Part shown: positions 31,378 to 37,086 of the stretch, in pieces
Layout: every line of letters starts with the position of its first letter
How positions within the stretch are numbered: position 1 is the stretch's first letter
The notes under the pieces: model-generated
The model's database searches: none
Seen by the model: the letters and a program-made list of their open reading frames with translations, nothing else
Told to the model about the DNA's origin: nothing
Assembly: GCA_036387335.1 (NCBI GenBank)
Contig: DASVTZ010000026.1
Span: 1 to 64,000 of the forward strand
Length of the DNA stretch: 64,000 bases
Direction: 5' to 3'
Source: Longimicrobium sp.
GTDB taxonomy: Bacteria; Gemmatimonadota; Gemmatimonadetes; Longimicrobiales; Longimicrobiaceae
Made by a program: the position numbers and the translations under genes

Positions 31378-31557
31378 ATGAGCCGCAACGCTTCGCCCAT
31401 CCCTTCGATTTCTCCGCGCGCGACGCAACGGTCTGTCTGGGTAGCTCCTGAAGTCCGGGATCTGCCGCGTCTCACCGATCTTACGCTGCAGACCGGCGGC
31501 GACATCCCGAGCGAGGGAAGCACCGGCGGCGGCGGCGGAACGGTCGTGGGAGGGTAG
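31378..31557 (+). CDS. putative RiPP precursor peptide, 59 residues
   Basis: The peptide begins MSRNASPIPSISPRATQ and continues VWVAPEVRDLPRLTDLTLQT, then a Gly/Ser/Thr-rich tail (GGDIPSEGSTGGGGGTVVGG). The W-x-x-P-x-V-R-x-L-x-x-L-T-x-L-T segment resembles leader sequences of lasso-type precursors, and the Gly-rich end would be the core. It lies 73 bases before a radical SAM gene on the same strand. ATG 31378 is preferred; an in-frame ATG at 31288 adds 30 basic, low-complexity residues. No lasso cyclase or protease gene is nearby, so the class is open. Confidence 0.6.
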   Translation: MSRNASPIPSISPRATQRSVWVAPEVRDLPRLTDLTLQTGGDIPSEGSTGGGGGTVVGG

Positions 31558-31630
31558 ATCCTTCTCGTCGTCGAAACGCCCTCCCCGACCTCTTCCTTTG
31601 AATCCCCTCCCGCTCTCCCGGCCCGCACCG

Positions 31631-32707
31631 ATGCTCGTTGGAATCGCGATTACGGAGCATTGCAACCTGCGTTGCGCCCACTGCATTCGCGATGACGTGA
31701 CTACGGTGCGCAACCTGGACGTGGGTCTGATCCACTCCATCGCGGAGCAGGCAGGCGCGCTCTGGAACGACGTGGAGATCCACATGACGGGCGGCGAGCC
31801 GACGATCCACCCCGGATGGGACCGGATCGTCGCCGGGCTGCATGAGCGGGGGGTGCGCTACTCGTTCACGAGCAACGGGTGGCACATGCGGCGGCTGATC
31901 CCCGGGCTGGACCGCTCGCCCCCCGCGCGGGTGCGCCTCTCGCTCTCCGGGGGCGACGAAGCGGTTCACGATGCGGAGCGCGGGCGCGGATCATTCCGCC
32001 GCATCCTGATCGCAATCGCGCTGCTGACGTCGCGGGGCATTCCGACTTCGCTCGGATTCCTGGTGGACCGGCGCGACCGGCACCAGCTGCGCCAGGCCGC
32101 GGACCTCGCGGAGGCGCTCGGGTGCACCGCGATCAGCTTCGTCCTGGCGCAGCCGGTGGGCGGGAGCGCGGCACGCGACACGGATCTCGCGCCGCACGAG
32201 TGGTACGCCGTGCGCGACGAGATCATCGCGCTGGGCCGGGAAGCCCGCCGTACGCGCGTGCGGCTCGACTATGGGTCTCCCTCCGTGGGCGAGGAGATGG
32301 TGTGCGACAGCTTCGAGCGGAAGCGCGTGTACGTCGACGCTCGCGGACGCCTCTCCATCTGCTGCCAGCTGAGCGAGTACGGCTTCAACGACGCCGACGT
32401 GGTGGCGGATCTCCACGAGCACACGCTGGCCGAGATATGGCCGCGCTACGTCGCCGCGCTCGAGCTGCAGCGCATCGCCGCCGCCCCGCGCGGCGACGGC
32501 GGCGAGCTCGATCGGTTCCCCTGCATCCGCTGCGCGCGTTCCATGGGCAAGATGCAATGGCTGCGCGCGTATCCGCAGAGTCCCTGGGCGGCCGCGGCCG
32601 AGCCCGGCCTCCGCCCTGTTCCGCGCAGCATCGTGTCGCTGACCTACGCCCGCGGAAGCCGCGTGTCCGACGCCGTCAACTCCTCCGTCGCAGTGGTGGG
32701 CGCATGA
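31631..32707 (+). CDS. radical SAM protein with C-terminal SPASM-like cysteines
   Basis: CNLRCAHC near residue 12 is the C-x3-C-x2-C [4Fe-4S] motif; HMTGGEPTIHPGW is the SAM-binding GGE motif and FTSNGW follows. The C-terminal part has Cys clusters (VYVDARGRLSICCQLSEYG; FPCIRCARSMGK) as in SPASM/twitch domains that carry auxiliary clusters in peptide-modifying enzymes. The 358-residue length fits. ATG 31631 is used because the motif must lie near the N-terminus; the ribosome site is weak, TTG 31598 is an alternative. It follows the small precursor and overlaps the next gene (ATGA), so it probably modifies that peptide. Confidence 0.85.
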   Translation: MLVGIAITEHCNLRCAHCIRDDVTTVRNLDVGLIHSIAEQAGALWNDVEIHMTGGEPTIHPGWDRIVAGLHERGVRYSFTSNGWHMRRLIPGLDRSPPARVRLSLSGGDEAVHDAERGRGSFRRILIAIALLTSRGIPTSLGFLVDRRDRHQLRQAADLAEALGCTAISFVLAQPVGGSAARDTDLAPHEWYAVRDEIIALGREARRTRVRLDYGSPSVGEEMVCDSFERKRVYVDARGRLSICCQLSEYGFNDADVVADLHEHTLAEIWPRYVAALELQRIAAAPRGDGGELDRFPCIRCARSMGKMQWLRAYPQSPWAAAAEPGLRPVPRSIVSLTYARGSRVSDAVNSSVAVVGA

Positions 32708-33825
32708 TGCCCCGTGCAAGATTCGGCCTGGCGCTCGTCGCGTGCGGTCTCCTTCTCGGCGGTTGCGATTCGCCTGCGGGGCCGGGCGAGCGGGCGCCTC
32801 TGAGCGTGATCGTCGCAGGGCGGCTGGAGCGTGGCTCCACGATCCACGTCAGCGCCGCTCGCGGGGACGTCGCGCTCTCCCCCGCGAACGTGACGTACTC
32901 CTTCGATCCGGCCGATGCGGTGCAGCCGCTCGGGGGCGACTCCGTGCGGCTGGTCCGCGCGGGGACCGTCAGCGTCGTGGTGACCGTGAAGGGTGAGTCC
33001 GCCACGCAGGCGCTGGCGGTGGCCGTGCCGCCTTCCATCGTGTTCGACCGGGTGGCGAACGGCAACCGCGACATCTGGCGTGTCGCGCTGGATGGCGGCG
33101 AGCTCACGCAGATCACCACGGACCTGGCGGATGACCTGGACCCGACCGTGGCGGCGGGGCGGCTGGTATTCGTCAGCTTCCGTGCGGACCGCAACGCGGA
33201 GCTCTTTTCCATGCCGCTCGCCGGCGGCGCGGCGACGCGCATCACGACCAGCGCCACCAACGAAAGCGCTCCGGCGCTCTCCCGGGACGGGAGCCGCCTG
33301 GCGTACGCGCTGGATGTGGCCGGTGTGACCAAGCTGTTCAGGGCGGCGGGCGACGGGAGCGGACGGGCGCAGGCGCTCGCCAGCTCGGCCGAAGCGGTGG
33401 AATCGTCCCCGTCGTGGGCTCCCGCGGATGGCAGCCTCGTATTCATGTCGACCGTGAACGGCACCGCGGACCTGTTCGAGCTTCCGCTCGCCGGCACCGC
33501 GACGCAGCTCGTTGGCGGGAACTCGGCGGACGTCGAACCCGCGGTGAGCGGAGATGGGCGCTTCGTGGCGTTCGCGAGCACCCGTTCCGGAAACGACGGC
33601 GCCGACATCTTCGTCCTGCGCCGGTCGGATGGGCAGATCGTGCGGCTCACCAACCGCGCCGCTTCGGAAGGTCAGCCGGCCTGGACCGCGGACGGCCGCC
33701 TGGTCTACACCGAGTTCGGCGCCGACGGCGGCCGGCTCCGCTGGGTCGATCCCGCCGCGCCCGGGGTGATCCACGAGATCGACACCGGCGCCGGAAGCGC
33801 GCGCAACCCGTCTTCCATACCGTGA
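32704..33825 (+). CDS. TolB-like beta-propeller lipoprotein
   Basis: The start overlaps the radical SAM stop (ATGA); a second ATG is at 32707. LVACGLLLGGCDSPAG is a lipoprotein signal. Residues about 115-370 are PD40/TolB-type blades with the repeated pattern V-F-x-S-x-R-x-x-x-x-x-E-L-F-x-M-x-L (LVFVSFRADRNAELFSMPLA; VAFASTRSGNDGADIFVLRR). It is likely anchored in the envelope and could hold or export the operon's peptide, but this is inference from coupling only. Confidence 0.8.
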   Translation: MMPRARFGLALVACGLLLGGCDSPAGPGERAPLSVIVAGRLERGSTIHVSAARGDVALSPANVTYSFDPADAVQPLGGDSVRLVRAGTVSVVVTVKGESATQALAVAVPPSIVFDRVANGNRDIWRVALDGGELTQITTDLADDLDPTVAAGRLVFVSFRADRNAELFSMPLAGGAATRITTSATNESAPALSRDGSRLAYALDVAGVTKLFRAAGDGSGRAQALASSAEAVESSPSWAPADGSLVFMSTVNGTADLFELPLAGTATQLVGGNSADVEPAVSGDGRFVAFASTRSGNDGADIFVLRRSDGQIVRLTNRAASEGQPAWTADGRLVYTEFGADGGRLRWVDPAAPGVIHEIDTGAGSARNPSSIP

Positions 33826-33934: not shown

Positions 33935-36604
33935 ATGCGACTCCACCTTCCCGGCCGCACACGCCCGTACGGCGTGGCACTGGTCCTCCTTGCCGCCGCG
34001 TGCAGCGACCGTCCGTCCAACCCGATGGCCGCCCTGCAGCCGGACGCACCTCCGGGCACCACCGCGCAGCTCGCCTGCACGGCGGCCGTCGCCACGGGGA
34101 TCGTGACGTGCGAGCCGCTCGCGCCCGAGGGCGCCTCGTTCGACCGGCGCCCCGGTGCCCCCGCGCTCGACCGCCGCACGGTGGGCGGCCAGGGCACGTA
34201 CCTGCGGCTCAACTCGTCGAACGTGGCGTACGCGAGCGAGGTGTTCGCGTTCGACCTGGCGGTGCAGAACCTGTCCAACCTCGCCATGGCCACCGACGAC
34301 GGCACCGTCCCCAACCTGGAGGGTGTGCGCGTGGTGATCCCCGCGGCGCCGGTGGCCACCAGCGGCACGGGGCAGATCACGGTGGCGAACGAGACGGGGC
34401 AGGCGGTGTTCAGCGGATCCGAGCCGCAGGACTACTTCCAGTACGGCGGCAGCGCGGGTACGGAGCTCGGCGTGGACGGGATCCTGGCGTCGGGCGAAGC
34501 CTCGGCAACCAAGCGCTGGCAGTTCAACGTCCCGGCCACGGTCAACACCTTCACCTTCACGCTCTGGGTGGCGACGCGCATGCCGGCCGGGGCGCTCCAG
34601 ACGATCGCGCCGCAGATCACCAGCGTGTCGCCGTCGCCGATGGTGCCGGGCGCCACGGCCACGATCACCGGGATCAACTTCGACCCCACGGCCGCCAACA
34701 ACGTCGTCAACATCAACGGGACGAACGTGGTGCCGAGCGCGGCCACCGCGACCTCGCTCACCGTCACGGTGCCGTGCGTCCTGTCCGGGAACGTGCCCGT
34801 CTACGCCACGCGCCCCAACCTGCGCGGAGCGACGAAGACCGCCGCCCTGCAGGGGAACCAGCGGACGGTGGGGATCGGGCAGGCGCTCATCGTGACCAAC
34901 AACGCGGAAGTGGCGTGCAACGAGCTGGCCCCCGCCGGGGGCGCGGCGCGCTACATCGTATCCGTATACAGCGCCAGCGCGTCTCCCTCGTCCAGCTCCC
35001 CGTTCCAGCTCGTTCCCGACGGCGATCCGGTGGTACCCGCCGTGGAGGCGGCCCCGGCGAGCGTGACGCTCCCCGGGCTGTACGCGCAGGTGGCCAACGC
35101 GGCCCAGATGCAGGCTGACGAGCGTCACGAGGAGCTGCTGGAGAAGAACCGCATCGCGTACGAGGAGCTTCGCGGCCGGAACGCGGGGATGCAGAACCGC
35201 GCCCGCCGCAACGTGGTGGCCGCCGCACAGGTGGAGCCGCCGGTGACGCGCACCTTCCGCGTCTCCAACATCAACGTGGGCGGCATCTGCACCAACTTCT
35301 ACGTGGTGAGCGCCACCCGCGTGTACTACAACGGGAAGCTCGCCATCTACGAGGACGACGCCACGCCGGCCGGCTTCAAGTCTTCGCTGAACGCCACCAT
35401 GGCCGCGAACTACCAGAAGATCGGCGACCAGTTCAACGCCGACATGGAGCCCGTGATCCGCAACAACTTCGGCGACATCCTGCGCCGGGACGCGGAGACG
35501 GACAACAACGGGGTGCTGGTGGCGCTCTTCACACCGCGCATCAACAACTCGTTCCAGGGCGTGGCGGGCTTCGTGGTCTCGTGCGACCAGTTCGCCAACA
35601 CCGATACGACCACCTACGCCGTGGGCGGCCCGTACACCGGACCCGCCGGCAGCAACGCGTCCAGCAACTTCGGCCAGTTCTTCTACGCCTACCAGCCGGT
35701 GGTGGCGGGGTCGGGCTACAGCGGCAACACCGCCGACAACTGGTACCGTACGATCCGCTCCACCTTCATCCACGAGACCAAGCACGTGGTGTCGATGGCC
35801 GCGCGCACGGAGAACAACGCGCCGCTGGAGAACGCGTGGCTCGAGGAAGGAACGGCGCGACACTCCGAGGAGCTGTGGATGCGCAACGCGGTGGACAACG
35901 TGGCGTGGAAGGGGAACACCGGGTATGGAAGCGCCGCGACCCCGGTCAACACCTACTGCGACGCCCGCTCCACCTCCGCCGCGTGCAACGCCAACACACG
36001 CCGGCCCGCCAGCATCATGCAGCGGCACTTCAGCGCCATGGCCATGCACATGTTCTCGACCAACGCGTCGCTCCTGTCGCCGTTCGGGCCAACCCCGGAG
36101 GACAACGGCTCGTACTGGTACGCGATCTCGTGGTCGCTGGTCCGCTACTCGATCGACCGGTACGCCGCGTCGGACGCCGCCTTCTTCTCGGCGCTGACGG
36201 AATCCAGCGACGTGGGGGTGACCAACCTGTCCAACCGCGTGGGCGTGCCCATCGACCAGCTCCTGGGCGGATGGTCGCTTGCGCTCGCGGCGGACGACCA
36301 CCCGCTGCTGGCCGGTCCGGCAAACCCGGACATCCAGATGCCCACCTGGAACTTCAGGAACATCTACGCGGGCTTCAACACCGACTTCCCGAATTCGTAC
36401 ACGACGCCGTACCCGCTCGTGCCGACGGCGCTCCCCTTCGGCGCCTTCACGGCACCGGGCGCCACGACCACGCTGCGCGGCGGCGGCGTGCGCTGGTTCG
36501 AGTTCTCGGGCACGCAGACGGCCCCGCAGCTGATCAAGCTGCAGGGGAGCGGCGGCGGCACCATCCCCAGCACGCTGCGGCTGGCGGTCACGCGGATCCA
36601 GTAG
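33935..36604 (+). CDS. TIG-domain metallopeptidase lipoprotein (M30-like)
   Basis: ATG 33935 gives a lipoprotein signal with the lipobox VLLAAAC. Residues about 224-310 are an IPT/TIG immunoglobulin-like domain (PQITSVSPSPMVPGATATIT). The C-terminal half holds the zinc motif HETKH (residues 613-617) and, 20 residues on, WLEEGTARHSEE (Glu 637 or 638 as third ligand), the spacing of gluzincin peptidases of the hyicolysin/M30 kind. Total 889 residues. It lies 109 bases downstream of the TolB-like gene and its stop overlaps the next GTG by one base. A role in peptide maturation is possible but unproven. Confidence 0.8.
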   Translation: MRLHLPGRTRPYGVALVLLAAACSDRPSNPMAALQPDAPPGTTAQLACTAAVATGIVTCEPLAPEGASFDRRPGAPALDRRTVGGQGTYLRLNSSNVAYASEVFAFDLAVQNLSNLAMATDDGTVPNLEGVRVVIPAAPVATSGTGQITVANETGQAVFSGSEPQDYFQYGGSAGTELGVDGILASGEASATKRWQFNVPATVNTFTFTLWVATRMPAGALQTIAPQITSVSPSPMVPGATATITGINFDPTAANNVVNINGTNVVPSAATATSLTVTVPCVLSGNVPVYATRPNLRGATKTAALQGNQRTVGIGQALIVTNNAEVACNELAPAGGAARYIVSVYSASASPSSSSPFQLVPDGDPVVPAVEAAPASVTLPGLYAQVANAAQMQADERHEELLEKNRIAYEELRGRNAGMQNRARRNVVAAAQVEPPVTRTFRVSNINVGGICTNFYVVSATRVYYNGKLAIYEDDATPAGFKSSLNATMAANYQKIGDQFNADMEPVIRNNFGDILRRDAETDNNGVLVALFTPRINNSFQGVAGFVVSCDQFANTDTTTYAVGGPYTGPAGSNASSNFGQFFYAYQPVVAGSGYSGNTADNWYRTIRSTFIHETKHVVSMAARTENNAPLENAWLEEGTARHSEELWMRNAVDNVAWKGNTGYGSAATPVNTYCDARSTSAACNANTRRPASIMQRHFSAMAMHMFSTNASLLSPFGPTPEDNGSYWYAISWSLVRYSIDRYAASDAAFFSALTESSDVGVTNLSNRVGVPIDQLLGGWSLALAADDHPLLAGPANPDIQMPTWNFRNIYAGFNTDFPNSYTTPYPLVPTALPFGAFTAPGATTTLRGGGVRWFEFSGTQTAPQLIKLQGSGGGTIPSTLRLAVTRIQ

Positions 36605-37086
36605 TGAAGCTGTCCATCGTGGCTCCCTGCGCGCTCGCCGTGGCGTGCGCGCCGGGAGCCCCGCCCCCCGCCGAGGCCCGCGCCGCCGCCGACACCCTGC
36701 GCGGCCGGGTGGAGGTGGTGGGCTCCGAGCCGGGAACCACGATCGCGCTCATGGACCCTCGCGGCGGCGCGGTGACGCTGGAAGGGGAGCGCGCCGTCCT
36801 CCTGCAGCTCGCCGCGCTCGAAGTGATGGTGCGAGGCCGCCCCGATGGCCCGCGCACCTTTCGCGTGGAGCGCGTCTCCGTCCGCGCCGCCGAGGGTGTA
36901 CCCGCCGTGGACGGCGTCCTCGCGCGCGACGGCACCCGCGACGTCCTGGTGCTGGAGGACGGGCGCCGGGTGCCGCTCGCCTTCACCCCGGCTGCGCTAC
37001 GCGGAAAGTACGGCGCGCGCATCTGGCTCGCCGGCCCGCTGGACCGGGCCCCCGACACCTTCGGCATCATCACCGAAGCGCCATAG
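36604..37086 (+). CDS. small exported protein, probable lipoprotein
   Basis: GTG 36604 shares its first base with the TAG of the metallopeptidase gene, so the two are coupled. The product (160 residues) begins VKLSIVAPCALAVACAPGAP, a short lipoprotein-like signal. The body consists of beta strands with repeats of GRVEVVGSEPGTTIALMDP style and is rich in Val/Arg. No family is recognised. A terminator follows at 37119. Confidence 0.65.
   Translation: MKLSIVAPCALAVACAPGAPPPAEARAAADTLRGRVEVVGSEPGTTIALMDPRGGAVTLEGERAVLLQLAALEVMVRGRPDGPRTFRVERVSVRAAEGVPAVDGVLARDGTRDVLVLEDGRRVPLAFTPAALRGKYGARIWLAGPLDRAPDTFGIITEAP

Follow-up and report, generated by a model that had tools for sequence, protein, structure and literature searches.

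A precursor gene is conserved beside the radical SAM enzyme

What is produced by a locus in which a short Gly-rich peptide, a radical SAM enzyme and a surface-type lipoprotein are encoded in succession, with neither a peptidase nor a lasso cyclase alongside? The question was addressed computationally for a window of 64 000 nucleotides (bases 1-64000 of contig C26) from a 5.8 Mb draft genome of a soil bacterium of the phylum Gemmatimonadota, probably of a Longimicrobium-like family to judge by its gene content, and the features considered are collected in Table 1.

Table 1. Features of the locus (window coordinates)
Feature	Position	Strand	Description
RiPP precursor	31378..31557	+	ATG start, 59 aa; family of 40; codon-level conservation
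Precursor parts			N-terminal stretch MSRNASPIPSISPRATQRSV; leader motif WVAPEVRDLPRLTDLTL; predicted core QTGGDIPSEGSTGGGGGTVVGG
Radical SAM/SPASM-like peptide maturase (predicted)	31631..32707	+	358 aa; Pfam Radical_SAM 8.4e-21
Propeller lipoprotein, surface-type	32704..33825	+	Ig-like N-terminal part and PD40/TolB-like beta-propeller, lipobox LLGGC
GGQ lipoprotein	33935..36604	+	GGQ domain, TIG domain, HExxH metallopeptidase-like region, lipobox LAAAC
'GGQ' domain	34061..34588	+	~160-residue beta-sandwich, weakly like CBM2/CBM3 folds
Small predicted lipoprotein	36606-37086	+	Directly after the GGQ lipoprotein

The preliminary description had read these genes as a RiPP operon headed by a 59-residue precursor, and had made conservation of the 59-codon frame beside homologous radical SAM genes the test of that reading. 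In 18 of the 21 radical SAM loci the enzyme gene is accompanied by a short ORF whose leader matches that of the window, mostly immediately upstream; the loci L053 and L039 have no recognisable precursor nearby. Codon differences from the window leader numbered 196 at third positions and 107 at first and second positions combined, the pattern to be expected if the frame is translated and selected. The outcome that would have refuted the reading was therefore not observed, and the ORF was accepted as a precursor gene. It belongs to no named family (0 Pfam or NCBIfam matches).

A second profile search, together with further loci, gave a set of 40 precursors in which this leader recurs, with the consensus W-x-x-P-x-V-x-x-L-P-R-L-T-(D/E)-L-T-L. 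The residues W, P4, L9 and P10 were invariant in all 40, although the pattern by which the set was selected already specified W, P4 and P10. The predicted core, whose start was placed by the lasso spacing considered below, follows the consensus (Q/A)TGxxIxGGGxxGGGSTV and then F, I, P or other residues, so that the Gly-rich sequence typically ends (S/T)TV. Few of the 40 cores are as unusual as that of the window, which lacks the Ser before TV and ends VVGG. Elsewhere in the same genome, weak matches to the precursor on contigs C140, C41, C193 and others look like chance, and a match on C42 is a genuine peptide, but of a different type.

The enzyme is a predicted peptide-modifying radical SAM protein

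For the enzyme, the family alignment prefers the ATG at 31631 over an upstream TTG at 31598, and the former is most likely the start because nearly all homologues begin at the M(L/V)LG position. The cysteine clusters pointed out earlier proved invariant among 19 homologues, both in the CxxxCxxC motif (C11/C15/C18) and towards the C terminus (C225, C244, C245, C298 and C301). The radical SAM half of the original radical SAM/SPASM label is upheld by the Pfam match. The SPASM half is less secure: C225-x13-G-x4-C244 forms the first half of the pattern and the CxxC at 298-301 is invariant, but the Pfam SPASM score of 19.3 bits lies below the cut-off of 21.5 bits, and 'SPASM-like' is for that reason the safer wording. 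An AlphaFold2 model (pLDDT 83) had BlsE, PqqE and SuiB as its nearest solved folds. By profile and predicted fold, the enzyme can thus be placed in the peptide-modifying branch of the radical SAM superfamily. No curated radical SAM family in NCBIfam fits it, the best matches, ScmF and GeoRSP, reaching 70 bits against a cut-off of 400 bits.

The enzyme was present in 10 of 21 genomes in a family-level search and in 18 genomes among 395 of the phylum. One scan of genome contigs returned only another Gemmatimonadota MAG and a 27% match in Pontibacter, and no plasmid matches were obtained at 1e-20. Separately, a second unusual radical SAM-like protein of ~ 460 aa (L036:17263-18648; Pfam Radical_SAM 20.7 bits) is encoded after an HprK-like gene, and a similar-looking gene follows an HprK-like gene at L140:2111-3652, in a genome that did not yield the usual enzyme.

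A second operon in the same genome encodes the missing RRE and peptidase

A second copy of the enzyme, with 68% identity, is encoded on contig C80 of the window's genome. The operon there runs precursor (core QTGGGIPCGSSTVCP), radical SAM enzyme, propeller lipoprotein, PqqD, B2 and HprK-like kinase, and contains no lasso cyclase. The B2 protein scored 48.3 bits against NF033537 (lasso_biosyn_B2; cut-off 33 bits) and also passed Pfam Transglut_core3. The PqqD protein passed PF05402 at 64 bits and fell below both lasso-PqqD cut-offs. The HprK-like protein bears a weak resemblance to known kinases, and its kinase activity is therefore treated as putative.

These data bear on two points raised earlier. 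An RRE search on the enzyme had been suggested; a fused domain was rejected, as the SAM motif starts at residue 11 and only a disordered tail lies past the last Cys region, but a stand-alone PqqD is encoded in the homologous C80 operon. The locus had also been described as lacking protease and cyclase. The window copy does lack a protease, but PqqD, B2 and HprK are encoded on C80; the absence of a cyclase held. The RiPP operon reading is supported accordingly: the precursor is kept beside the enzyme, and genes for an RRE and a lasso-type peptidase accompany homologous copies of the locus. The window copy is probably partial, using the RRE and peptidase (and kinase) from C80 in trans. It may also be drifting under relaxed selection, since its own RRE and peptidase are absent and its core is atypical.

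A recurring order in relatives is precursor, radical SAM enzyme, GGQ lipoprotein, propeller, PqqD, B2 and HprK, with small variations (L032, L034, L052, L054) and sometimes with a YadA-head/S74 protein between the GGQ lipoprotein and the propeller. Even where the enzyme is not nearby, propeller, PqqD, B2 and HprK remain grouped (L166, L167; the L168 contig stops after B2). Neither a cyclase nor an exporter was recognised within these sets, from first gene to last. Genomes G007 and G015 kept precursors together with PqqD, B2 and HprK, and a radical SAM enzyme of this family was not found in them, which may mean that the enzyme is not always needed. Both genomes are drafts, however, and the G007 contig ends where the radical SAM gene would be expected, so that assembly gaps may explain its absence there.

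The leader has lasso spacing but most cores do not fit a lasso peptide

Lasso biosynthesis employs a precursor A, an RRE (B1/PqqD), a B2 peptidase (NF033537) and a cyclase C, in some cases with an HprK-like kinase. The preliminary description had likened the leader to those of lasso peptides, and the likeness turned out to be exact in register: with cleavage assumed after Leu17 of the motif, W falls at -17, P at -14, V/I/L at -12 and T at -2, and 38 of the 40 precursors carry the full lasso-spaced motif with W in place of Y. Lasso leaders require Tyr(-17), Pro(-14), Leu(-12) and Thr(-2), and phosphorylated lasso clusters carry the HprK-like kinase BsfK (PMC10368454). The present loci therefore share with lasso biosynthesis the leader spacing, a PqqD RRE, a B2 protein above its curated cut-off and, with the phosphorylated clusters, an HprK-like kinase; they differ in having no cyclase, in adding a radical SAM enzyme and surface lipoproteins, and in that most cores have no Asp or Glu at the ring positions.

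A true lasso peptide, in which a cyclase acting in trans closes the macrolactam and the radical SAM enzyme merely decorates it, would account for the leader spacing and the lasso-type B2. Position 9 of the window core is Glu, and a complete cluster with an asparagine-synthetase-like cyclase, whose precursor has the leader WHTPVVEEVPF..., lies on contig C147 of the same genome. This interpretation is nevertheless very improbable: 18 of the 40 cores are free of any Asp or Glu and 30 have none at positions 7-9, which makes a macrolactam impossible for most of the family; the predicted core begins with Gln or Ala and not Gly; and a cyclase gene was present in none of the loci that were read.

Core composition narrows the candidate chemistry

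Cys is absent from 33 of the 40 cores, the window core included, and 30 contain no aromatic residue except possibly at the last position. Together with the absence of acidic residues from 18, this composition excludes the majority of known bonds when the family is taken together. The cores leave Gly, Ser, Thr, Val or Ile as candidate targets, which might undergo epimerisation or form aliphatic C-C or C-O bonds, or else the C terminus. A triceptide or cyclophane RiPP was considered and rejected, 30 of the 40 cores having no internal aromatic residue and the window core having none.

Formation of Cys thioethers, as in sactipeptides or ranthipeptides, could be entertained on several counts: StsB-family sactipeptide maturases rank with the better profile matches, the enzyme model has SkfB among its structural neighbours and some cores have two Cys residues (GIPCGSSTVCP). 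Against this stand the Cys-free majority of cores, to which the window core belongs, and the fact that all NCBIfam matches were far under their cut-offs, and we regard such a product as highly unlikely.

A third type of product would be a small redox cofactor made from the C-terminal TVF for the propeller lipoprotein, as in mycofactocin or PQQ systems. PQQ (PqqD-PqqE) and mycofactocin (MftB-MftC) likewise pair an RRE with a radical SAM/SPASM peptide maturase. The architecture of PqqD, radical SAM enzyme and peptidase, the match of mycofactocin and PqqE profiles to most members, the rank of PqqE as the best-scoring solved relative by profile, and the many precursors ending VF all agree with such a product. 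The C terminus is, however, variable (VF, VII, VIP, VVP, VCP, VVGG), with no conserved C-terminal Val-Tyr or Glu-Tyr; a cofactor is hard to reconcile with so long a Gly-rich core and with several precursors dispersed over a genome; and no dehydrogenase was seen in the loci. A cofactor is accordingly considered improbable.

Surface lipoproteins are regular members of the system

The ATGA overlap of the propeller gene start with the radical SAM stop, at 32704-32707, is real. The lipoprotein has three PD40 repeats (Pfam E=1.8e-21), and 'TolB-like' was accurate as far as a propeller lipoprotein is meant; it is not the TolB of Tol-Pal, scoring 103 bits against the TIGR02800 cut-off of 343 bits, and no tol or pal gene was seen in the locus. 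An identity as an Atxe2-type lasso isopeptidase was also tried and rejected, the protein being 373 aa long and consisting of a propeller with no S9 catalytic domain. Its presence in a peptide-modification operon had been called unusual. On the contrary, it is a regular member, found in 12 of the 21 radical SAM loci (one weak match left out), and its homologues adjoin PqqD-B2-HprK in about ten other loci.

The next gene had been taken to encode a metallopeptidase lipoprotein. An HETKH...E motif, typical of metallopeptidases, is indeed present, but no Pfam peptidase match was obtained. The protein also contains GGQ, a previously undescribed domain that has no Pfam family. Its model (pLDDT 86) is a beta-sandwich, and a structure search gave weak beta-sandwich or CBM-like matches, none at E<=0.001. 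GGQ proteins were found in 16 of the 18 enzyme-bearing genomes against 1.5 expected (395 phylum genomes); the count by genus, given because kinship among genomes inflates co-occurrence p-values, was 11 of 12 (p about 3e-10). They also occur in 18 of 21 genomes with precursors. At several loci (L033, L034, L166, L168, L170, L171) GGQ and propeller domains are fused in a single lipoprotein, which ties the two adjacent lipoproteins of the window together. The lipoproteins thus belong to the system, through a link that is statistical in nature.

Some cores are identical within a genome

In genomes such as G014, G012, G011 and G001, a single enzyme of this family is accompanied by four or five precursor genes, mostly on other contigs. 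In G014, G011 and G012, an enzyme-linked and an orphan precursor have identical cores of 21 residues, with leaders that differ. These pairs show in total 11 synonymous and 0 nonsynonymous changes in the core, compared with 20 synonymous and 20 nonsynonymous (pairwise) for cores of the same locus across genomes; the resulting Fisher p = 0.0035 is indicative only, because pairwise counts are non-independent and the pairs were chosen after the cores had been seen to match. The same within- versus between-genome comparison of leaders gave no difference (p = 0.63). One more identical-core pair was present in G007. The remaining precursors in G014, G011 and G012 carry different cores, and the window genome has no such matching, its two cores being different. 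Within a genome, then, some cores have been homogenised, via selection or gene conversion. Prochlorosin-like systems keep their leaders and vary their cores; the pattern here is the opposite, cores matching while leaders differ. The identity of dispersed cores suggests that the core is the constrained functional product.

It is possible, though we think it unlikely, that the peptide is not a released product and instead forms part of a structure for the cell surface or for kin recognition, in which surface proteins of the GGQ, propeller and YadA/S74 types display it, have it attached to them or recognise it. The constant neighbours of the genes are lipoproteins, no exporter was seen, GGQ co-occurs with the system, precursor-GGQ cassettes exist away from the enzyme (L139, L142) and the core is genome-specific and homogenised within a genome. 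Yet there is no physical or sequence sign of attachment, the many GGQ lipoproteins and several precursors lie far apart, and gene conversion alone can also homogenise cores. More tentatively still, the radical-SAM-modified peptide could be a shared, genome-specific partner of the dispersed surface lipoproteins, acting as a self-recognition tag or surface-assembly element and not as an antibiotic. One hub of radical SAM enzyme, RRE, B2 and kinase would then serve scattered precursor and lipoprotein genes, and a core that does not vary inside a genome but does from one genome to another would fit either role.

The proposed reading: a minimal radical-SAM RiPP locus with a lasso-type front end

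We judge the RiPP locus to be genuine. The fuller reading we favour, with a probability of about two in three, is that of a minimal radical-SAM RiPP locus of a new family, with a lasso-type front end and a product that is likely surface-located or secreted. We infer the following order of events. The stand-alone PqqD-type RRE would bind the lasso-type leader through W-17, P-14, V/I/L-12 and T-2; next, the radical SAM enzyme would modify the Gly/Ser/Thr/Val-rich core; and the lasso-type B2 cysteine peptidase would then cut after Thr-Leu and free a peptide of ~ 15-22 residues. The window copy, which has no RRE, B2 or kinase, would borrow those of the complete C80 operon. The nature of the bond is a matter for speculation, and so is a possible phosphorylation of the conserved C-terminal Ser/Thr by the HprK-like kinase. 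The product most likely ends up at the surface or is secreted, because there is no cyclase and no recognisable exporter and the neighbours are surface lipoproteins; it could, speculatively, work with the propeller and GGQ lipoproteins.

This specific family is not described in the openly accessible literature searched. The combination of a lasso-type RRE with a radical SAM enzyme is not unheard of, since RRE-Finder listed about 300 cases of lasso-type RREs beside radical SAM enzymes (PMC7470986). The SynChlorMet and GeoRSP cassettes (TIGR04251, TIGR04303) also have a radical SAM enzyme with a discrete PqqD, and ScmC is weakly matched by the HprK-like protein; the present loci differ in their lasso-type B2 and lipoproteins, in a comparison that leaves out the cassettes' own precursors. 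The predicted fold resembles streptide-type SuiB and other RaS-RiPP maturases (TM 0.61-0.65), but the enzyme here has no N-terminal RRE and no crosslink residues were identified in its substrates.

In this family the precursor, its leader, the peptidase and the partner genes are all defined. Because the substrates offered to the radical SAM enzyme are Cys-free, aromatic-poor and Gly-rich, the bond formed, whichever it is, should not be one of the common thioethers or cyclophanes. With surface lipoproteins linked to the system and cores matching within genomes, a RiPP role inside the producer's own cell envelope becomes directly testable.

Other peptide genes in these genomes

Several further peptide genes were encountered. 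Contig C147 of the window's genome (G000; L066:8087-11241) carries an ordinary lasso cluster of B2, PqqD, asparagine-synthetase-like cyclase and precursor, the last with the leader WHTPVVEEVPFTRTEA, of W-x-x-P-x-V type, and the plausible core GGAGTVYDFTVYAGSV. In three genomes (L128, L129, L131), orphan precursors share a conserved position, close to a GntR-type regulator and to membrane proteins of the CBS/hemolysin type. Several small Cys-rich ORFs with the pattern LxVExFxT...ARGTVRGH lie near orphan precursors of the family (L132:3070-3549, L133:3062-3256) and resemble pinensin-type lanthipeptide precursors. At L138:6035-6829, an orphan precursor and a GGQ lipoprotein flank a gene that looks Nif11/nitrile-hydratase-like and may belong to another peptide system.

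A second, related peptide type was seen on contigs C134 (L067:8290-12251) and C42 (L145) of G000 and at L033, L034, L146 and L147. It comprises short peptides with [YF]xxPxV/L leaders (for example YVPPLLEDLGGWTALTLQQS...) next to an HprK-like gene and to a lipoprotein whose conserved domain ('TGIGT') is a different one; YadA-head/S74 proteins are often present as well.
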